Part shown: positions 741 to 6,662 of the stretch, one piece after another | Layout of the letters: the number at the start of each line of letters is the position of its first letter | How positions within the stretch are numbered: the first letter of the stretch is position 1 | Assembly (NCBI GenBank): GCA_017536285.1 | Contig: JAFXHP010000029.1 | Location: forward strand, 1 to 9,691 | DNA length: 9,691 nucleotides | Origin: Clostridia bacterium | GTDB taxonomy: Bacteria; Bacillota_A; Clostridia; UMGS1883; HGM11501 | Direction: 5' to 3' | Position numbers and translations under genes: made by a program | Notes under the pieces: generated by a model | Seen by the model: the letters and a program-made list of their open reading frames with translations, nothing else | Databases searched by the model: none | Told to the model about the DNA's origin: nothing

Positions 741-3700
741 ATGAAAAAAAAGTTTATAAGCGTATTGCTGATAATGATTCTGCTGCTGCCAAATATGAAT
801 GTTATTCCATCGAGTGCGGCAACGAAGCTTAGTGTTGGAGAAACAACAAATGGATATATAGATATATCGGGTGCGTGGGCTTTAAGCAAAGACATAGACA
901 ATTATGAATTTACTCCCGATACTACACAGTTTTATAAGTTCTACCTTGAAAACAAAAGCGTGAGAGTTAAAAAGCCCAGTGAAGGCGGGATGGGCTCTTT
1001 ATTAAATTCCTCTGTAAGGCTCAGAATGGATATCTATGACGGAGATGATAAATTTCTGGGAAGTGTAAATGTATCTGACGGATATACCGGTACCATTTCT
1101 GTCAAGCTTGAAGCTAAAAAAACATACAGGATGGAAGTGTATGTGAGCTCGATATTAGGTTTGTTTTCTGTTTTTGCAAAGGGTAACTACAGTATAACGG
1201 TAAAGAAACAGAATGATATGGGCTCTGATTCGTGGCATAGCGCTGAAGAAACAAAGGAGAGTGCATATATGTCGGCGGCAATAGAATCTGGAGATGATGA
1301 GGACTGGTTTAAGTTTGAAACTGATGATGCACCTAAATTTCTTTATGTTTCGCTGGAAAGCATCCAGGGATCCTCTCTTGACTTTTGCCTGTACGAATAT
1401 GTCAAAGGTGCAGGAGAATTTCCGATGCGAGATATTGGAGAGTTCTCTGTTTATAGAAATTCAAAAAAGAGTGGGGTTTATACACTGAACAAAAACTCTA
1501 CATATTATTATGCAATTAAAGCCTATAAAGAAACCGGGTACGTATTTGATTTTGCCCTACAGGATGATATCGGCGGTTCGAGCAGGGAGGAGGCCGCAGA
1601 AATAGATTTTGACGAAAAGTACACTTGGTCATTTGACGGTTATAAGGACAGTGACTATATAAAATTTGAAACAGGCGAAAAGCTGGCTTACTATCAGATA
1701 AATCTGGAAGGAAAGGATATTGATCATTCGGCAGTTTGGCTTTATGACGAGAACGGAAAAGAAATAGGAAATAAAGATACCGGTTATAATTTCTCTCTAT
1801 CGACAAGTTATCAGCTGGAGCCAGAAAGTGTCTATTTCGTCAGATTCTATGGTACGGAAATAGGAGAATATGAGTTTTCTGTGACAGAAAAAATAGACAA
1901 ATATCCAGATAATATGGAAGACGCTGCAAAGGTGTCGTTAAATAAAAAATATGAAACATCATTTGAAGCCTCCGGAGATAATGATTATATAAAGTTCAAA
2001 ACGGGAAGCGACCTTGCATATTATGAGATATATATGAAACGATCGGAAGATTATGAAATAAGAGCAACACTTTACGATGAGGATGGGAAAGAAGTGGATT
2101 CCGCTGAACGATGGAGTTATAGTAGTGATACCATCTCATTCAGCTGCCAGCTTGAAGGCAGAAGTACCTATTATGTGGCTTTTTACGGTAAAAGCAGCGG
2201 AGATTATGAGTTTGAGATAAGAGAGAATAAAGACGAATATCCTGATATAATGGAAGAAGCTGAAGTAATAGAACTAAATAATAAATATGAAACATCATTT
2301 GAAGCCCCCGGAGATAATGACTATATAAAGTTCAAAACAGGAAGCGACCTTGCATATTATGAGATATATATGAAACGGTCGGAAGATTATGAAATAAGAG
2401 CAACACTTTACGATGAAGATGGGAATGAAGTGGATTCCGTTAAACGATGGAGTTATAGTAGTGATACCATCTCATTCAGCCGTCAGCTTGAAGACAGAAG
2501 TACCTATTATATAGCTTTTTATGGTGGAGATAGCGGTAAATATGAATTTTCCATTAATATAATGAAGGATGAAGATCCGAATGATTTCGATAAGCCCACA
2601 GTTGCCGCATTAAATGAAAAATATCAGAGAGATTTATGCGTTGACAGCGACACGGACTGTTTTGGTATACATCTCCTTGAAAGCACTCCGCTACAGGTAA
2701 AATTGTTTAATGAAAGCTGCAGTAAATTATACTTTGAGGTAAAAAGCGAACGTGATATAACTGTGCTCAGCGGTGGAGGCTACGGAAAAAATAATGTTTA
2801 TATAAAGAGTGCTACGCTGGAGAAGGGATATTACTTTATCAGCGTTTACGGACAAGCCGGATATTATACTCTTACTTTGTCGGGATGTGGGGACGGACAC
2901 GGACTTGAAGTGCTTGTGCCAGGTAAAGCCGCCACCTGCACGGAAAAAGGTCTGACTGACGGTAAAAAATGTATGAACTGCGAGACAATAACATTGGAGC
3001 AGAAGAGTATAAAAGCTTTGGGACATAATTACGAAAACGGAAAGTGTAATATATGCGGTGGCAGCGAACTGTGTAAAAACGGACATACGGCGGTTACGAT
3101 AGCGGAAAAGCAGCCTACCTGTATGAACGAAGGAAATACAGAAGGAATGCAATGTTCAAAGTGTAATGTATATCTTACAAGCATACAGATAATACCGCGC
3201 CTCAGCCATAGCTATGTTGATGGTATATGTAAACTTTGTGGAAATGTGGACCCTGCACTTAATCCTCCTGTGTTTTCCGATGTTGCAAACGACTCCTGGT
3301 ATAAAAATGCGGTGGATTTTGTGTCTGTAAAGGGACTTTATGTGTGGATTTCAGGCGACAGATTTGAGCCTGACGCTCCTATGAAAAGATCAATGCTTGT
3401 TACGGCTATGTGGCGTTATGCCGGAAGTCCGGAACCTAAATCAATGAATATGTTTGCTGATGTTCCGGACGGTCAGTGGTATACAAAAGCAATTTTATGG
3501 GCTGCGGAAAACGGTATTGTAAACGGCATAGGCTACGGGAAATTTGACCCTGAAGGCAATATTACAAGAGAAAGTCTTGCGGCGGTTCTTAACAGATATG
3601 CAAAGGTCATTAATGCTGATTCCGAAGGAGTGGCAGATCTTAATACCTTCCCTGATGGAGGCATTGTAAGTGAATGGGCGAAGGTGCCGCTTCAGTGGGC

Positions 3701-3833
3701 AATCAGTAAAGGACTGATAACGGGCACAAGCAGAATAGGCTACAACGGTTCTTTTATTGATCCTCAGGGAACAGCAACGCGTGCACAGGTGGCGACGATA
3801 CTGATGCGATTTATAAATTCATTGGAAAGTTAA
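741..3833 (+). CDS. Secreted SLH-anchored surface protein with tandem PPC-like domains
   Basis: This 1030-residue protein is predicted to be exported and held on the cell wall. Residues 1-27 form a signal peptide (KKK, hydrophobic core, cleavage near SSAA). Residues about 35-712 are beta-rich modules resembling pre-peptidase C-terminal (PPC) domains. The clearest copies lie at about 165-275, 280-390, 391-502, 503-614 and, degenerate, 615-712. They share D-DY-KF near the start, LYDE-G in the middle and YY-FYG-G-YEF at the end. Residues about 716-838 hold two cysteine-rich repeats (C-GH, PTC-G, C-C, LGH-Y, C-CG), a pattern common in clostridial surface proteins. Three SLH domains end the chain (about 845-900, 905-960, 970-1028), the usual means of binding pyruvylated secondary wall polymer. 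No catalytic domain is recognisable, so adhesion, ligand binding or a structural role are possible. The start is ATG at 741 with SD GGAGGAG (729-735). The ArsC-like gene follows 13 bases later and is probably co-transcribed. Confidence 0.92.
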   Translation: MKKKFISVLLIMILLLPNMNVIPSSAATKLSVGETTNGYIDISGAWALSKDIDNYEFTPDTTQFYKFYLENKSVRVKKPSEGGMGSLLNSSVRLRMDIYDGDDKFLGSVNVSDGYTGTISVKLEAKKTYRMEVYVSSILGLFSVFAKGNYSITVKKQNDMGSDSWHSAEETKESAYMSAAIESGDDEDWFKFETDDAPKFLYVSLESIQGSSLDFCLYEYVKGAGEFPMRDIGEFSVYRNSKKSGVYTLNKNSTYYYAIKAYKETGYVFDFALQDDIGGSSREEAAEIDFDEKYTWSFDGYKDSDYIKFETGEKLAYYQINLEGKDIDHSAVWLYDENGKEIGNKDTGYNFSLSTSYQLEPESVYFVRFYGTEIGEYEFSVTEKIDKYPDNMEDAAKVSLNKKYETSFEASGDNDYIKFKTGSDLAYYEIYMKRSEDYEIRATLYDEDGKEVDSAERWSYSSDTISFSCQLEGRSTYYVAFYGKSSGDYEFEIRENKDEYPDIMEEAEVIELNNKYETSFEAPGDNDYIKFKTGSDLAYYEIYMKRSEDYEIRATLYDEDGNEVDSVKRWSYSSDTISFSRQLEDRSTYYIAFYGGDSGKYEFSINIMKDEDPNDFDKPTVAALNEKYQRDLCVDSDTDCFGIHLLESTPLQVKLFNESCSKLYFEVKSERDITVLSGGGYGKNNVYIKSATLEKGYYFISVYGQAGYYTLTLSGCGDGHGLEVLVPGKAATCTEKGLTDGKKCMNCETITLEQKSIKALGHNYENGKCNICGGSELCKNGHTAVTIAEKQPTCMNEGNTEGMQCSKCNVYLTSIQIIPRLSHSYVDGICKLCGNVDPALNPPVFSDVANDSWYKNAVDFVSVKGLYVWISGDRFEPDAPMKRSMLVTAMWRYAGSPEPKSMNMFADVPDGQWYTKAILWAAENGIVNGIGYGKFDPEGNITRESLAAVLNRYAKVINADSEGVADLNTFPDGGIVSEWAKVPLQWAISKGLITGTSRIGYNGSFIDPQGTATRAQVATILMRFINSLES
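1941..2612 (+). repeat. 336-bp in-frame tandem duplication inside the surface-protein gene
   Basis: Two consecutive 336-bp (112-codon) units begin near 1941 and 2277; the landmark gaaacatc recurs at 1953 and 2289. About 240 bases (1951-2190 versus 2287-2526) align without gaps, with roughly 14 mismatches counted by eye, about 94 percent identity. The linkers between the conserved cores are more diverged. The neighbouring modules (280-390 and 615-712 of the protein) are much less alike, so this pair is a recent duplication or has been homogenised by gene conversion. Confidence 0.93.
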
Positions 3834-4185: not shown

Positions 4186-4197
4186 GATTGGTTATAT

Positions 4198-4229
4198 AAA
4201 AATCCTGAAACTTTCGTTTCAGGATTTTT
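4198..4229 (+). terminator. Rho-independent terminator after the ArsC-like gene
   Basis: A perfect 14-bp stem pairs 4198-4211 (aaaaatcctgaaac) with 4216-4229, with loop tttc. It lies 12 bases after the TAA at 4183-4185. The A-rich left arm and T-rich right arm make it potentially bidirectional. Confidence 0.92.
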
Positions 4230-4458
4230 GTTATATTCTGCTTTATTCGCAGAGTTATATTTTTGATAAATCAAAAGCGGTATTTTGTCAGACTGCGGCT
4301 GACAAAGCTGACGGGAGTCCTTTTGTACTCCCGCCAAAACACCCCAACACATTAATCATAACACAAAGATATATGCTTTGTCAATAAAAATATGTTTAGT
4401 TTTACCATATTCTCCGTTTTATACAAAAATAAATTGTGAACTTTTAACAGTTTGCCTA
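4230..4458. other. Gene-free spacer with four small hairpins
   Basis: I see no protein gene here. Four inverted repeats are visible: ttttgat/atcaaaa (4261-4267 with 4270-4276), tttgtcag/ctgacaaa (4284-4291 with 4299-4306), cgggagt/actcccg (4312-4318 with 4327-4333) and acaaag/ctttgt (4363-4368 with 4376-4381). The second and third stand almost back to back and share the word ctgac in direct repeat (4299-4303 and 4308-4312). No T-run follows them on the plus strand. The stretch from about 4380 to 4458 is AT-rich and may serve as an UP element for the promoter at 4459. Confidence 0.6.
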
Positions 4459-4487
4459 TTGAAATAGCTACTTTTTCATGCTATAAT
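4459..4487 (+). promoter_or_regulatory. Sigma-A promoter of the putative structured RNA
   Basis: The -35 is TTGAAA (4459-4464), the spacer is exactly 17 bases, and the -10 is a perfect TATAAT (4482-4487). Transcription is expected to start near 4494. AT-rich sequence lies upstream. No protein gene begins within 500 bases downstream on this strand, which is the reason to read it as an RNA gene promoter. Confidence 0.82.
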
Positions 4488-4493
4488 GAACTC

Positions 4494-4930
4494 ACAAAGA
4501 AGAAAGAGAGGTAAGGTCCAATGAGATAGTAAGAAAGCTCTTTTAAGAAGGTACAATTTAATAGTGAAGGTTAAAAATAATTCAATGTAAGTAAGTTGGT
4601 TAATTTATTGGTAGGAAAATAAACAGTAAAGAAGGAATTTGCTAAGAAGAATTGAAGACACGGCGGTGTGATACGCTTTATATATAAGTGATTGTTAATC
4701 GGCCAGGAAACCTTCATTAAGAGAGCTATCGGAAATTCGCCTTTTGCAAAACGACAAAACATAAATCCATCCCGTTGGGGAAGTGAAAGAGTGAGTAGTT
4801 TTGGAAGAATTGAATGAGCAAAGGGCAGATTAAGAAAGCGAGGATTAAAAAAGATGTTAGATATCAAGAGTGAACAGAAATAACCCTTGGTCTTGCGTAA
4901 AGAAGCATGATCAGGGGTTATTTCTATTTT
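4494..4930 (+). ncRNA. Putative stand-alone structured non-coding RNA, about 430 nt, unassigned class
   Basis: The region lies between a sigma-A promoter (4459-4487) and a long terminator hairpin (4877-4924), has no credible ORF on this strand and is strongly purine-rich. Pairing by hand gives these helices. P1: 4536-4552 with 4710-4727, 17 pairs, one G-U and one bulged A at 4716. A possible extension: 4553-4558 with 4690-4695. Inside P1, hairpins 4625-4630/4638-4643 and 4658-4661/4666-4669. P2: 4739-4747 with 4818-4826, 9 pairs, one G-U. P3 nested in P2: 4755-4760 with 4798-4803. A tip hairpin: ccc GTTG ggg (4771-4773/4778-4780). The architecture is therefore a large multi-branched domain, a second elongated arm and a terminator. 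I see no tmRNA, RNase P, SRP, group I or II intron or T-box landmarks. Known large bacterial RNAs such as ROOL, OLE, GOLLD or raiA cannot be excluded from memory alone. It ends about 90 bases before the promoter of the downstream operon, so it could also be a separately terminated leader-like element. Confidence 0.68.
4877..4924 (+). terminator. Long hairpin terminator of the putative RNA
   Basis: The outer stem gaaataaccc (4877-4886) pairs with gggttatttc (4915-4924). It continues inward through six more pairs (ttggtc with gatcag, two G-U), then one mismatch and tgc/gca, closing a loop gtaaagaa. That makes about 19 pairs in total. The downstream side is U-rich (tatttt at 4925-4930). Confidence 0.85.
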
Positions 4931-4940
4931 AAAGAAAAAT

Positions 4941-4975
4941 CGCAACTTTGTCCTGTAACCGCAACATTTTCATGT
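4941..4975. promoter_or_regulatory. Candidate operator: 16-bp direct repeat, 19-bp period, with overlapping palindrome
   Basis: CGCAACTTTGTCCTGT (4941-4956) and CGCAACATTTTCATGT (4960-4975) match at 13 of 16 positions. The second copy is also half of a hairpin palindrome, caacat/atgttg (4962-4967 with 4972-4977). The pair ends against the -35 of a weaker promoter (4975) and lies about 46 bases upstream of the consensus -35 at 5022. Direct repeats in this position suit a tandem-binding activator of the AraC type, common beside clostridial glycosidase genes. The regulator identity is inference. Confidence 0.45.
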
Positions 4976-5021: not shown

Positions 5022-5050
5022 TTGACATTAAATAGGGCAAAAGCTATAAT
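5022..5050 (+). promoter_or_regulatory. Perfect consensus sigma-A promoter of the glycosidase operon
   Basis: TTGACA (5022-5027), a 17-base spacer and TATAAT (5045-5050). Transcription should start near 5056-5058, leaving a leader of only about 13 bases that is almost entirely the SD sequence AGGGGTG (5057-5063) of the gene at 5070. There is no room for a riboswitch or attenuator behind this promoter. It also shows that a TTG start at 5022 for the next gene is wrong. Confidence 0.9.
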
Positions 5051-5069: not shown

Positions 5070-6662
5070 ATGAAAGTTTGCGTTATACAACCTTTGTATC
5101 CTACAGATTATTCAAGATCTGACGAAATGTTTTTATGGGAAATGGAAGCTATGGATAAATGTGACGAAAGTATGGATTTAATCGTGCTACCGGAATCCAC
5201 CGACGTTCCTTGCTTCGCAAAAACAAGAGAAATGGCTCTTGAAAGCTATAAAAAATTTAACAGAAAACTTATCGAAAAAGCATCAGAAACTGCAAAAAGA
5301 TGCAATGCGGTACTTTTTATAAATGCATATAAGGAGGTAGAAACCGGTCTCCGTAATACTACCTACGCTTTCGACAGAGAAGGCAAAATTGCAGGATATT
5401 ATTTCAAGCAGCATTTGACACCCGGCGAAACAAGCGAAAGAAAGCTTGACAGCGACTATACCTTTGAATTTTCCGATACCGACATTATCACAATCGACGG
5501 TGTACGTTATGCATTTTTAACCTGTTACGACTTTTATTTTTATGAGGCGTTTGCGAAAATCGCACTTGCACGCCCCGATATAATAATAGGATGCTCCCAT
5601 CAGCGTTCCGATACGCACGAGGCACTTTCCATTATGTCAAAGTTCCTTGCTTATAATACCAACGCTTATGTGGTTCGTTCTTCCGTTTCCATGAATGAAG
5701 AAAGCACCATCGGTGGCGGAAGTATGGTGGTGTCACCGAAGGGAGAAATGCTTCTCAATATGGGAAGCAGGGTTGGTATGGAGTGCGTAGAAATCAATCC
5801 CGAAGAAAAATATTATAAGCCAGGAGGTTTCGGAAACCCCGACATGGCTCATTTTGAATATATAGAAAAGGGACGCCGTCCCTGGAAATACCGTCCTGCG
5901 GGAAGTGCAATCGTAAAGCACGATGCTCTAATGCCATATCCCAGAATCTGTGCACACCGTGGATTTAACACTATAGCACCCGAAAACAGTATGCCTGCCT
6001 TTGGTGCGGCCATCGCCTTGGGTGCCGAAGAGATAGAGTTTGACCTTTGGTACACAAAGGACGGGGAAGTGGTATCGATTCACGATCCCGATCTTGACAG
6101 GGTGTCTGATGGTACTGGCAAGGTTTATGACCATACATATGAAGAACTTTTAGCCTACGATTTCGGAATAAAATATTCCGAGAAATTTAAAGGACTTAAG
6201 ATAATCAAATTTGAAGAAATTCTTGAAAAGTTTGCCTGCCACGTAATTATGAATATTCATATTAAAAGCGTGGACAATGTAAATCCTCTGCCCGAAGAGC
6301 ATCTTAAAAAGATAATCGACCTTATAAATAAATATGACTGTGCGAAATACTCTTACTTTATGACAGGTAACGATGCGGTTCTTTCCCAGCTTCAGACCCT
6401 GGCACCCGATATATGCCGTTGCTGCGGCGGAGGGGATGCACCTTTAGAAATGGTAGAGCGCGGATTAAAATACGGCTGTAAGAAAATTCAGCTTGTAAAC
6501 TGGGCGTTTAATAAGGAAATGATTGATAAAGCCCACGAGAATGGAATGCGATGCACGATTTTTTGGGCGGATGAAACAGAGCAGGCGAAAAAATATCTTG
6601 ATATGGGTGTTGACGTAATTTTAACCAATGACTATCAGCGAATATCGCAGGTTATAAAGTGA
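5070..6662 (+). CDS. Nitrilase-superfamily amidase fused to glycerophosphodiester phosphodiesterase
   Basis: This is a 530-residue two-domain cytoplasmic enzyme. Residues 1-270 form a carbon-nitrogen hydrolase domain that starts canonically (MKVCVIQP). It has the Glu-Lys-Cys triad at E42 (VLPESTD), K113 (YFKQHL) and C152 (LTCYD), which is expected to hydrolyse an amide or carbamoyl bond. Residues about 292-526 are a GDPD TIM barrel with every key residue: H296-R297-G298, P304-E305-N306, E323 and D325 as metal ligands, H338-D339, then TKDG and GVDVILTND. It would cleave glycerophosphodiesters to glycerol 3-phosphate and an alcohol. Both halves have full family length and intact catalytic residues, so both should be active. 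ATG 5070 is chosen because of SD AGGGGTG (5057-5063) and because an in-frame TTG at 5022 is the -35 box. The next gene starts in a 4-base GTGA overlap. There is no signal peptide. Confidence 0.92.
   Translation: MKVCVIQPLYPTDYSRSDEMFLWEMEAMDKCDESMDLIVLPESTDVPCFAKTREMALESYKKFNRKLIEKASETAKRCNAVLFINAYKEVETGLRNTTYAFDREGKIAGYYFKQHLTPGETSERKLDSDYTFEFSDTDIITIDGVRYAFLTCYDFYFYEAFAKIALARPDIIIGCSHQRSDTHEALSIMSKFLAYNTNAYVVRSSVSMNEESTIGGGSMVVSPKGEMLLNMGSRVGMECVEINPEEKYYKPGGFGNPDMAHFEYIEKGRRPWKYRPAGSAIVKHDALMPYPRICAHRGFNTIAPENSMPAFGAAIALGAEEIEFDLWYTKDGEVVSIHDPDLDRVSDGTGKVYDHTYEELLAYDFGIKYSEKFKGLKIIKFEEILEKFACHVIMNIHIKSVDNVNPLPEEHLKKIIDLINKYDCAKYSYFMTGNDAVLSQLQTLAPDICRCCGGGDAPLEMVERGLKYGCKKIQLVNWAFNKEMIDKAHENGMRCTIFWADETEQAKKYLDMGVDVILTNDYQRISQVIK

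Follow-up and report, generated by a model that had tools for sequence, protein, structure and literature searches.

A solitary transcription unit with two very short reading frames

What is made by a transcription unit that has a strong promoter and a terminator but no long reading frame between them? The unit that raises this question lies on the forward strand at positions 4459 to 4930 of a 9,691-nt stretch of DNA from a Clostridia bacterium (contig JAFXHP010000029.1), which was analysed as a whole and is called the window below. An earlier note had described it as a TTGAAA-17-TATAAT promoter, a purine-rich body with no usable ORF and a 19-pair hairpin terminator, with nothing protein-like until a separate promoter at 5022. 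Much of this description holds. The promoter, P+ (4459..4487, + strand), has 11 of 12 consensus bases and a TG before the -10 element, and sequence comparison places a promoter of the same type ahead of other copies of the family described below. The body (4494-4877) is 65.4% purine, a content that none of 187 sliding windows of the same length reaches, and no Pfam-matching protein starts between the unit and the promoter at 5022, which has 12 of 12 consensus bases. The intrinsic terminator (4878..4930, + strand) is present, its hairpin spanning 4878-4923, although the predicted fold has 20 pairs rather than 19. What did not survive is the absence of a usable ORF: the + strand lacks a long frame, but it carries two tiny ones with strong ribosome sites that recur across the family, namely ATG AGA TAG at 4521-4529 and an ATG...TAA frame for MLDIKSEQK at 4854-4883.

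The predicted fold of 4494-4930 has an energy of -104.4 kcal/mol, against -78.3 +/- 5.1 kcal/mol for 100 shuffles (z -5.1). A 124-aa frame on the minus strand (4571-4945) gave no match in a Pfam scan. The unit is flanked upstream by a gene for an ArsC-family protein and downstream by a gene, with its own promoter, whose product (5070-6662) fuses a carbon-nitrogen hydrolase and a glycerophosphodiester phosphodiesterase (GDPD) domain in a single protein. Elsewhere in the window, two and a half near-perfect 92-bp tandem repeats (1-231) lie directly 5' of a gene for a small acidic protein (265-660), which has CPKC/CPNC pairs and no Pfam match. The stretch 741-3833 encodes a 1030-aa protein with an SLH domain and CxxC pairs, in which internal repeats and an apparent secretion signal were seen by eye.

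The unit belongs to a family of RNA genes in Clostridia

The earlier note had found no known class for the unit, and a cmscan search of 4440-4945 against the 4227 models of Rfam release 15 agrees, with no match at E ≤ 5. Its comparison with large ornate RNAs stands as far as a stand-alone structured RNA is concerned, and is not supported for any likeness of the ROOL, GOLLD or OLE type, for which cmscan gave no match. At E ≤ 0.1, 13 further loci yielded two weak Rfam matches, both far under the gathering score; a match to Ms_IGR-7 (28.1 bits vs a gathering score of 45) overlaps the terminator of the L124 copy. The note had also set homologues with compensatory changes as a test, and these exist, as seen in the covariation and partner-swap results for two helices described below.

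We gathered 88 distinct copies, all from Clostridia, using an anchor that consists of the second ribosome site followed by YTAGAT and CCY and that demands neither a start nor a stop codon. The predicted RNA is about 190-680 nt long, with a median of 411 nt (70 copies). Relatives of the downstream gene were found in 407 stretches of genome contigs, and among the best 80 of these 407 loci two have a near-identical RNA and a third has a diverged RNA elsewhere on its contig; the named relatives from this search are Clostridia MAGs, mostly from animal guts. At E ≤ 0.01, BLAST with the unit matched 28 of 47 genomes (loci L003-L050; weakest best E 3.9e-7) and 22 of 148 relatives of G002, six of the latter convincingly (best E ≤ 8e-9). 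A covariance model of the 3' 98 positions, R1, built from 34 copies, reached further. Of 245 relatives of G170, it matched 67 at E ≤ 0.01, although the match was weak in two, and six of these genomes had supplied model sequences. At E ≤ 1e-4, it matched 44 of 295 genomes in an order sample, three of which had supplied model sequences, and 16 of 341 in a class sample, seven of which had done so and one of which is the near-identical G001. Among 398 genomes of a phylum sample, which serves as a negative control, G170 itself was the only match at the same threshold.

One copy (L210 3820-4090) comes from a human-gut isolate, Vescimonas fastidiosa MM35, and sits on a replicon of 861 kb that is filed as a plasmid; its neighbors are a TetR/AcrR regulator on one side and spoVAC on the other, and the annotation has no feature at the match. 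The 34-row alignments used below (A1 and A2) leave out L055 and L088, which were false pattern matches, as well as L001 and L132; the 37-row alignment (A3) leaves out 34 of 71 anchored copies that lack the CC anchor, together with L001, a near-duplicate of the window. We recognised no description of the RNA in the open-access literature, a comparison that did not take in the candidate catalogue of Fremin and Bhatt 2021, whose supplements hold 3161 candidates (PMC8040213); this catalogue may hold a piece of the family. Taken as a whole, we regard the RNA family as almost certainly real.

A nine-codon frame and its ribosome site are the best conserved part of the RNA

The part of the family that is best conserved in alignment A1 is not a structural core but a ribosome site with a nine-codon frame, and the earlier suggestion of a purely non-coding RNA is to that extent not supported. 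In the window, the second Shine-Dalgarno site (GAAAGCGAGG; 4834..4843, + strand) precedes ORF2 (MLDIKSEQK and stop; 4854..4883, + strand). The site reads GAAAGAGAGG in 70 of 88 copies and GAAAGCGAGG in 7 of 88. A start and an in-frame stop are present in all 71 anchored copies, with the stops of the other two frames falling elsewhere. Across the 88 copies, the frame encodes 9 amino acids in 75, 8 in 7, 10 in 5, and 11 in 1, and the typical peptide is MLD[IT]K[SN]EQK.

As the YTAGAT anchor fixes Leu2 and Asp3 of ORF2 by construction, the frame was also assessed in an anchor-free set of R1 matches above 50 bits (66 distinct sequences from 63 loci), 59 of which contain YTAGAT. A frame of 8-12 amino acids can be read in 64 of the 66, one of them in the wrong frame by the pattern, and the other two have a TTG start, as judged by eye. 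Seven of the 66 lack YTAGAT: three use synonymous Leu codons (TTG, CTG) before Asp, and the others include MNTDFKSNRK, MLEPASEY and both TTG-start frames, which keep the K-[SN]-E pattern while differing in the 5' half. Because the synonymous Leu codons and K-[SN]-E are kept in these anchor-free copies, the ORF2 peptide itself appears to be under selection. Selection at the nucleotide level was considered for the near-fixed bases of ORF2, and it is undercut by the same synonymous codons. Codons 4 and 6-9 vary freely, with 86 amino-acid-changing against 41 silent cells, part of the 86 being stop codons of shorter frames.

We saw no export signal in the ORF2 peptide by eye, and a literature text search with its core string returned no relevant paper. 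In three outlying copies (L205 257-351, L206 1501-1591, and L207 1501-1588), ORF2 has EP at residues 3-4 in place of D and I/T, with two TTG starts among them; these may represent a subfamily.

Start-stop modules precede the folded core

The first Shine-Dalgarno site of the window (AGAAAGAGAGG; 4501..4511, + strand) leads into ORF1, ATG AGA TAG (4521..4529, + strand), a frame of two to three codons that is common to the family. Counted behind promoters chosen without an ORF1 criterion, and with its start set at the first start codon that follows CC or CA in copies that have them, ORF1 has 2-3 codons in 70 of 87 copies, is longer in 12 and has no start at the expected place in 5. These 17 exceptions may be genuine or may reflect wrongly picked sites. 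The short ORF1s, 70 in number, all start with ATG, and 57 end in TAA; they encode 36 different peptides, such that length is kept and sequence is not. Because the peptide varies so freely, ORF1 would act through the position of the ribosome. Eight distinct copies repeat the whole module two to four times; they make up 9 of 71 rows, as one locus appears twice. Three to four successive modules of ribosome site and start-stop frame were seen at the RNA 5' end in L157, L156, and L202.

Two readings of this layout are the strongest. The one we favor, at a rough probability of 0.36, is that the RNA is a messenger for the nonapeptide with a ribosome-gated leader of start-stop modules. Closely behind it, as a tentative alternative, comes a decoy or gauge of translation initiation, in which strong ribosome sites with scant coding length would hold initiating ribosomes against a stable helix, either P1 or that of the terminator, in the layout of CreT RNAs minus CRISPR and rare codons. 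A decoy would account for an ORF1 whose length is kept without its sequence, for modules repeated two to four times and for both frames ending at or in a helix; in 86 of 88 copies, the 5' arm of the terminator contains the ORF2 stop codon. Bacillota, however, often have a stop codon close to a terminator, which weakens this last point. Nor are ORF1 codons rare, as only 8 of 126 fall below 4 per 1000 in the window's genes. A start hairpin like that of the Acinetobacter CreT, in which a short stem encloses the start codon, was assessed for ORF2 only; all five pairs are possible in 51 of 83 copies, and 29 have lost one pair. The synonymous Leu2 changes in the anchor-free matches point to the peptide, and therefore lower the decoy reading and raise the peptide reading. 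In favor of the decoy, accounts of CreT describe RNAs that act via SD, start codon, mini-ORF, and stem-loop, with the Acinetobacter CreT working without its peptide (PMC8501985, PMC10097628).

Predicted helices lie ahead of the second ribosome site

Between the two frames lies a core that is the family's least conserved part in sequence and that is predicted to fold. Helix P5 in the window pairs CCTTTTGC (4740..4747, + strand) with GCAAAGGG (4818..4825, + strand). In the family, it is CCUUUUGC with GCAAAAGG, directly 5' of the second ribosome site, with 95.6% of cells paired and both-side changes in 6 of 8 pairs across 37 aligned copies. Hairpin P4 (4768..4783, + strand) has 80.4% of cells paired and both-side changes in 4 of 6 pairs in the same 37 rows, and the evidence for both helices comes from one subtype. 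On each of four measures, P4 and P5 together beat every one of 500 shuffles; on a fifth they beat 498 of the 500, and they also beat all slid versions. RNAalifold recovers P5 unaided and does not recover P4.

A longer-range helix, P1 (4537..4551 with 4711..4726, + strand), appears in the fold of the window and pairs bases just 3' of the last ORF1 with bases just 5' of P5. In a swap test on 39 copies, a set in which the window is joined by L001 and L002, both nearly identical to it, own partners averaged -24.8 kcal/mol vs -14.9 kcal/mol for swapped ones. The own partner was better than all 38 swaps in 22 of the 39 copies, and in 5 it was matched or beaten by at least 11 of 38. The result is weaker against shuffles of the middle, where 13 of 78 beat all 60 and the mean z is -1.5. 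In 37 of 39 copies, no more than about 9 nt separate the stop of the last ORF1 from the start of this pairing. For copies that lack the P4/P5 motifs, a P1-like pairing was seen by eye only.

Inside the P1 loop is a mostly invariant motif, ACACGGCGGUGU...AUAUA (P3; 4658..4684, + strand), which is a candidate pairing. As a hairpin, P3 is conserved in sequence with a single clear compensatory case among 38 rows, and we do not claim it. A part of this motif, GGCGGUGU (4658-4672), is complementary to an ACACCGCC stretch of 16S rRNA, possibly by chance.

A covarying core is also what one would expect of an ordinary regulatory RNA that acts in trans, by pairing with mRNAs or binding a protein, and whose mini-ORFs would merely load nuclease-protecting ribosomes. 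Several copies in some genomes fit such an RNA as well, and protection of mRNA by ribosomes on leader mini-ORFs has been described (PMC8708949). Conservation runs the other way, with the core changing most in sequence and the translated 3' end least, and we consider this explanation rather unlikely.

A divergent promoter lies at a fixed distance

A second promoter, P- (4355..4384, - strand; TTGACA 4384-4379, TATGAT 4360-4355), faces away from P+. Measured upstream from the P+ -35 element, the distance to the best divergent promoter is 73-76 nt in 59 of 68 copies. Its score is 10 of 12 or higher in 67 of the 68, a level that shuffled upstream sequences attain in 8 of 70 cases. The conserved spacer between the promoters (4385..4458) includes a 17-bp imperfect palindrome, noted by eye, with the family consensus TTGTnAAnnnTTnACAA; its half sites are Rex-like, one base short of Rex spacing. 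P- is predicted to give an RNA of about 155 nt (4190..4348, - strand), its end placed from a hairpin at 4196-4231, with UGUUGGGG near its 5' end. The family consensus of this RNA is UGUUGggg near the start and is variable after.

The tisB/istR system is a type I toxin-antitoxin pair, and the divergent RNA could serve as the antitoxin of a similar pair. The fixed distance of the divergent RNA, the tandem copies found at some loci, the upstream mini-ORF, and the structured leader are in keeping with this. ORF2, however, encodes 8-12 amino acids that are hydrophilic and charged, not a hydrophobic membrane peptide. An istR-like antisense role was also tried directly and rejected: in the 24 of 60 copies sampled, pairing between the initial 40 nt of the P- RNA and the P+ RNA was not specific, at -22.3 kcal/mol for own and -22.0 kcal/mol for swapped partners. 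A toxin-antitoxin pair is thus very improbable. A CreA-like guide function was likewise rejected, as the mean longest stretch shared by the P- RNA and the promoter was 7.3/7.2 nt for own and 7.1/7.3 nt for swapped partners (two strands, 60 copies).

The gene stands alone

The context was surveyed at 20 loci of up to 20 kb each, where the gene stands alone in the loci examined and none of the neighbors is constant across the 20. Among the gene clusters that occur within 3.5 kb of each locus's first copy, the commonest occur, when entire loci are counted, in 4 of the 20; one cluster present in 9 loci lies outside those neighborhoods. Three locus pairs have an adjacent gene in common (L170/L173, L176/L183, and L177/L184). 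Ten downstream genes were taken one each from 10 of the 20 loci, leaving out L183, whose adjacent gene is that of L176; eight match Pfam, all in different families, and two have no match. PADLOC returned only weak matches for these ten, to CRISPR-associated regulator models, in a DeoR-type regulator. A leader or attenuator of the next gene was rejected, since that gene is convergent in 5 of 20 loci (L170, L173, L180, L182, and L184). It is also convergent for one further copy in L171, and several of the loci whose next gene is co-directional have, on inspection by eye, a promoter separate from P+ for that gene.

Some copies stand in tandem, such as a series of three with steps of 585-594 bp, and the presence of multiple and sometimes tandem copies in a genome might suggest a mobile or phage-borne repeat instead of a host RNA gene. 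Two patterns had 0 exact matches in viral contigs, the sole phage match is 32 bases long (E 0.1), and the one match in a plasmid collection is on the 861-kb replicon. The three locus pairs with a common adjacent gene, from the 20 loci, fit vertical inheritance. A mobile origin is accordingly the least credible of the explanations.

Comparison with known systems

Several known RNAs share parts of this layout. The tmRNA, also structured, is about as long and has a short frame inside it; ARAGORN found 0 tmRNA genes in the window and 6 loci, with none from Rfam either. RNAIII is a dual-function RNA that is folded and also carries a small frame; RNAs of this type, compared through Rfam only, resemble the family in that combination and differ in that the family's ORF2 has just 8-12 codons, with start-stop modules ahead of it. 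ROOL, named for its rumen origin (PMC12286853), and GOLLD and OLE are likewise bacterial structured RNAs; beyond the absence of a cmscan match, the family differs from them in carrying conserved short frames.

Minigenes that tune a downstream frame are described for axe-txe mg2, EHEC LEE1/LEE4, and B. subtilis ycbK; like ORF1, they include frames of two to six codons, some with their own ribosome sites, that alter the expression of the following gene (PMC8708949). Those minigenes are in the leaders of protein genes, whereas in this unit the short ORF2 is the only frame that follows. A similar layout is that of CreT, which has an SD, an AUG, a mini-ORF, and a stem-loop and, in the Acinetobacter case, a divergent partner gene (PMC10097628, PMC8501985). 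A strong SD, AUG, and mini-ORF are all found in the family. In contrast to the archaeal type of CreT, which has rare mini-ORF codons, those of ORF1 are not rare; the family's divergent RNA has no guide-like match to its promoter, and the family has a long folded core, repeated start-stop modules, and two frames per RNA. We did not file the family as CreT because it lacks the rare codons and the guide RNA.

Proposed mechanism and significance

Based on the sequences, the family consists of stand-alone genes for a predicted structured RNA, with one to four start-stop mini-ORFs close to the 5' end, a folded variable core, and a short ORF2 at the terminator. We favor a messenger for the nonapeptide because ORF2 is conserved, ORF1 is kept in length and repeated, P5 covaries, P1 prefers its own partners, and the gene is solitary. 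We count against this reading the freely varying codons 4 and 6-9, the absence of an export signal as judged by eye, the 17 of 87 ORF1 exceptions, the restriction of the P4/P5 evidence to one subtype, the 5 of 39 P1 partners that do poorly against swaps, and the weaker result of the P1 shuffles. In the proposed mechanism, the divergent promoters would together determine the level of expression. Ribosomes would initiate at ORF1, terminate once two or three codons have been read, and remain positioned against P1; their traffic would set the formation of P1 and P5 and the number of ribosomes that reach the second site, and the translation of ORF2 would be the conserved output.

With its short first frame and conserved last frame, the RNA probably depends for its function on ribosomes that initiate and terminate on it. 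A bolder idea, somewhat less likely than the decoy, is that these genes form a chromosomal, CRISPR-independent class of RNA that gauges or brakes initiation, in which repeated start-stop frames and a copy-specific core would set passage and a fixed nonapeptide frame would read it out.

The family is new in its build, as it falls outside the 4227 Rfam models and we recognised no description of it in open-access papers. An ORF1 that keeps its length and not its sequence and is sometimes repeated, with a conserved nonapeptide frame coming last, is not explained by an ordinary gene or by a simple non-coding RNA. If it is true that the start-stop events are selected, the family would represent a new kind of RNA that acts on or through translation.
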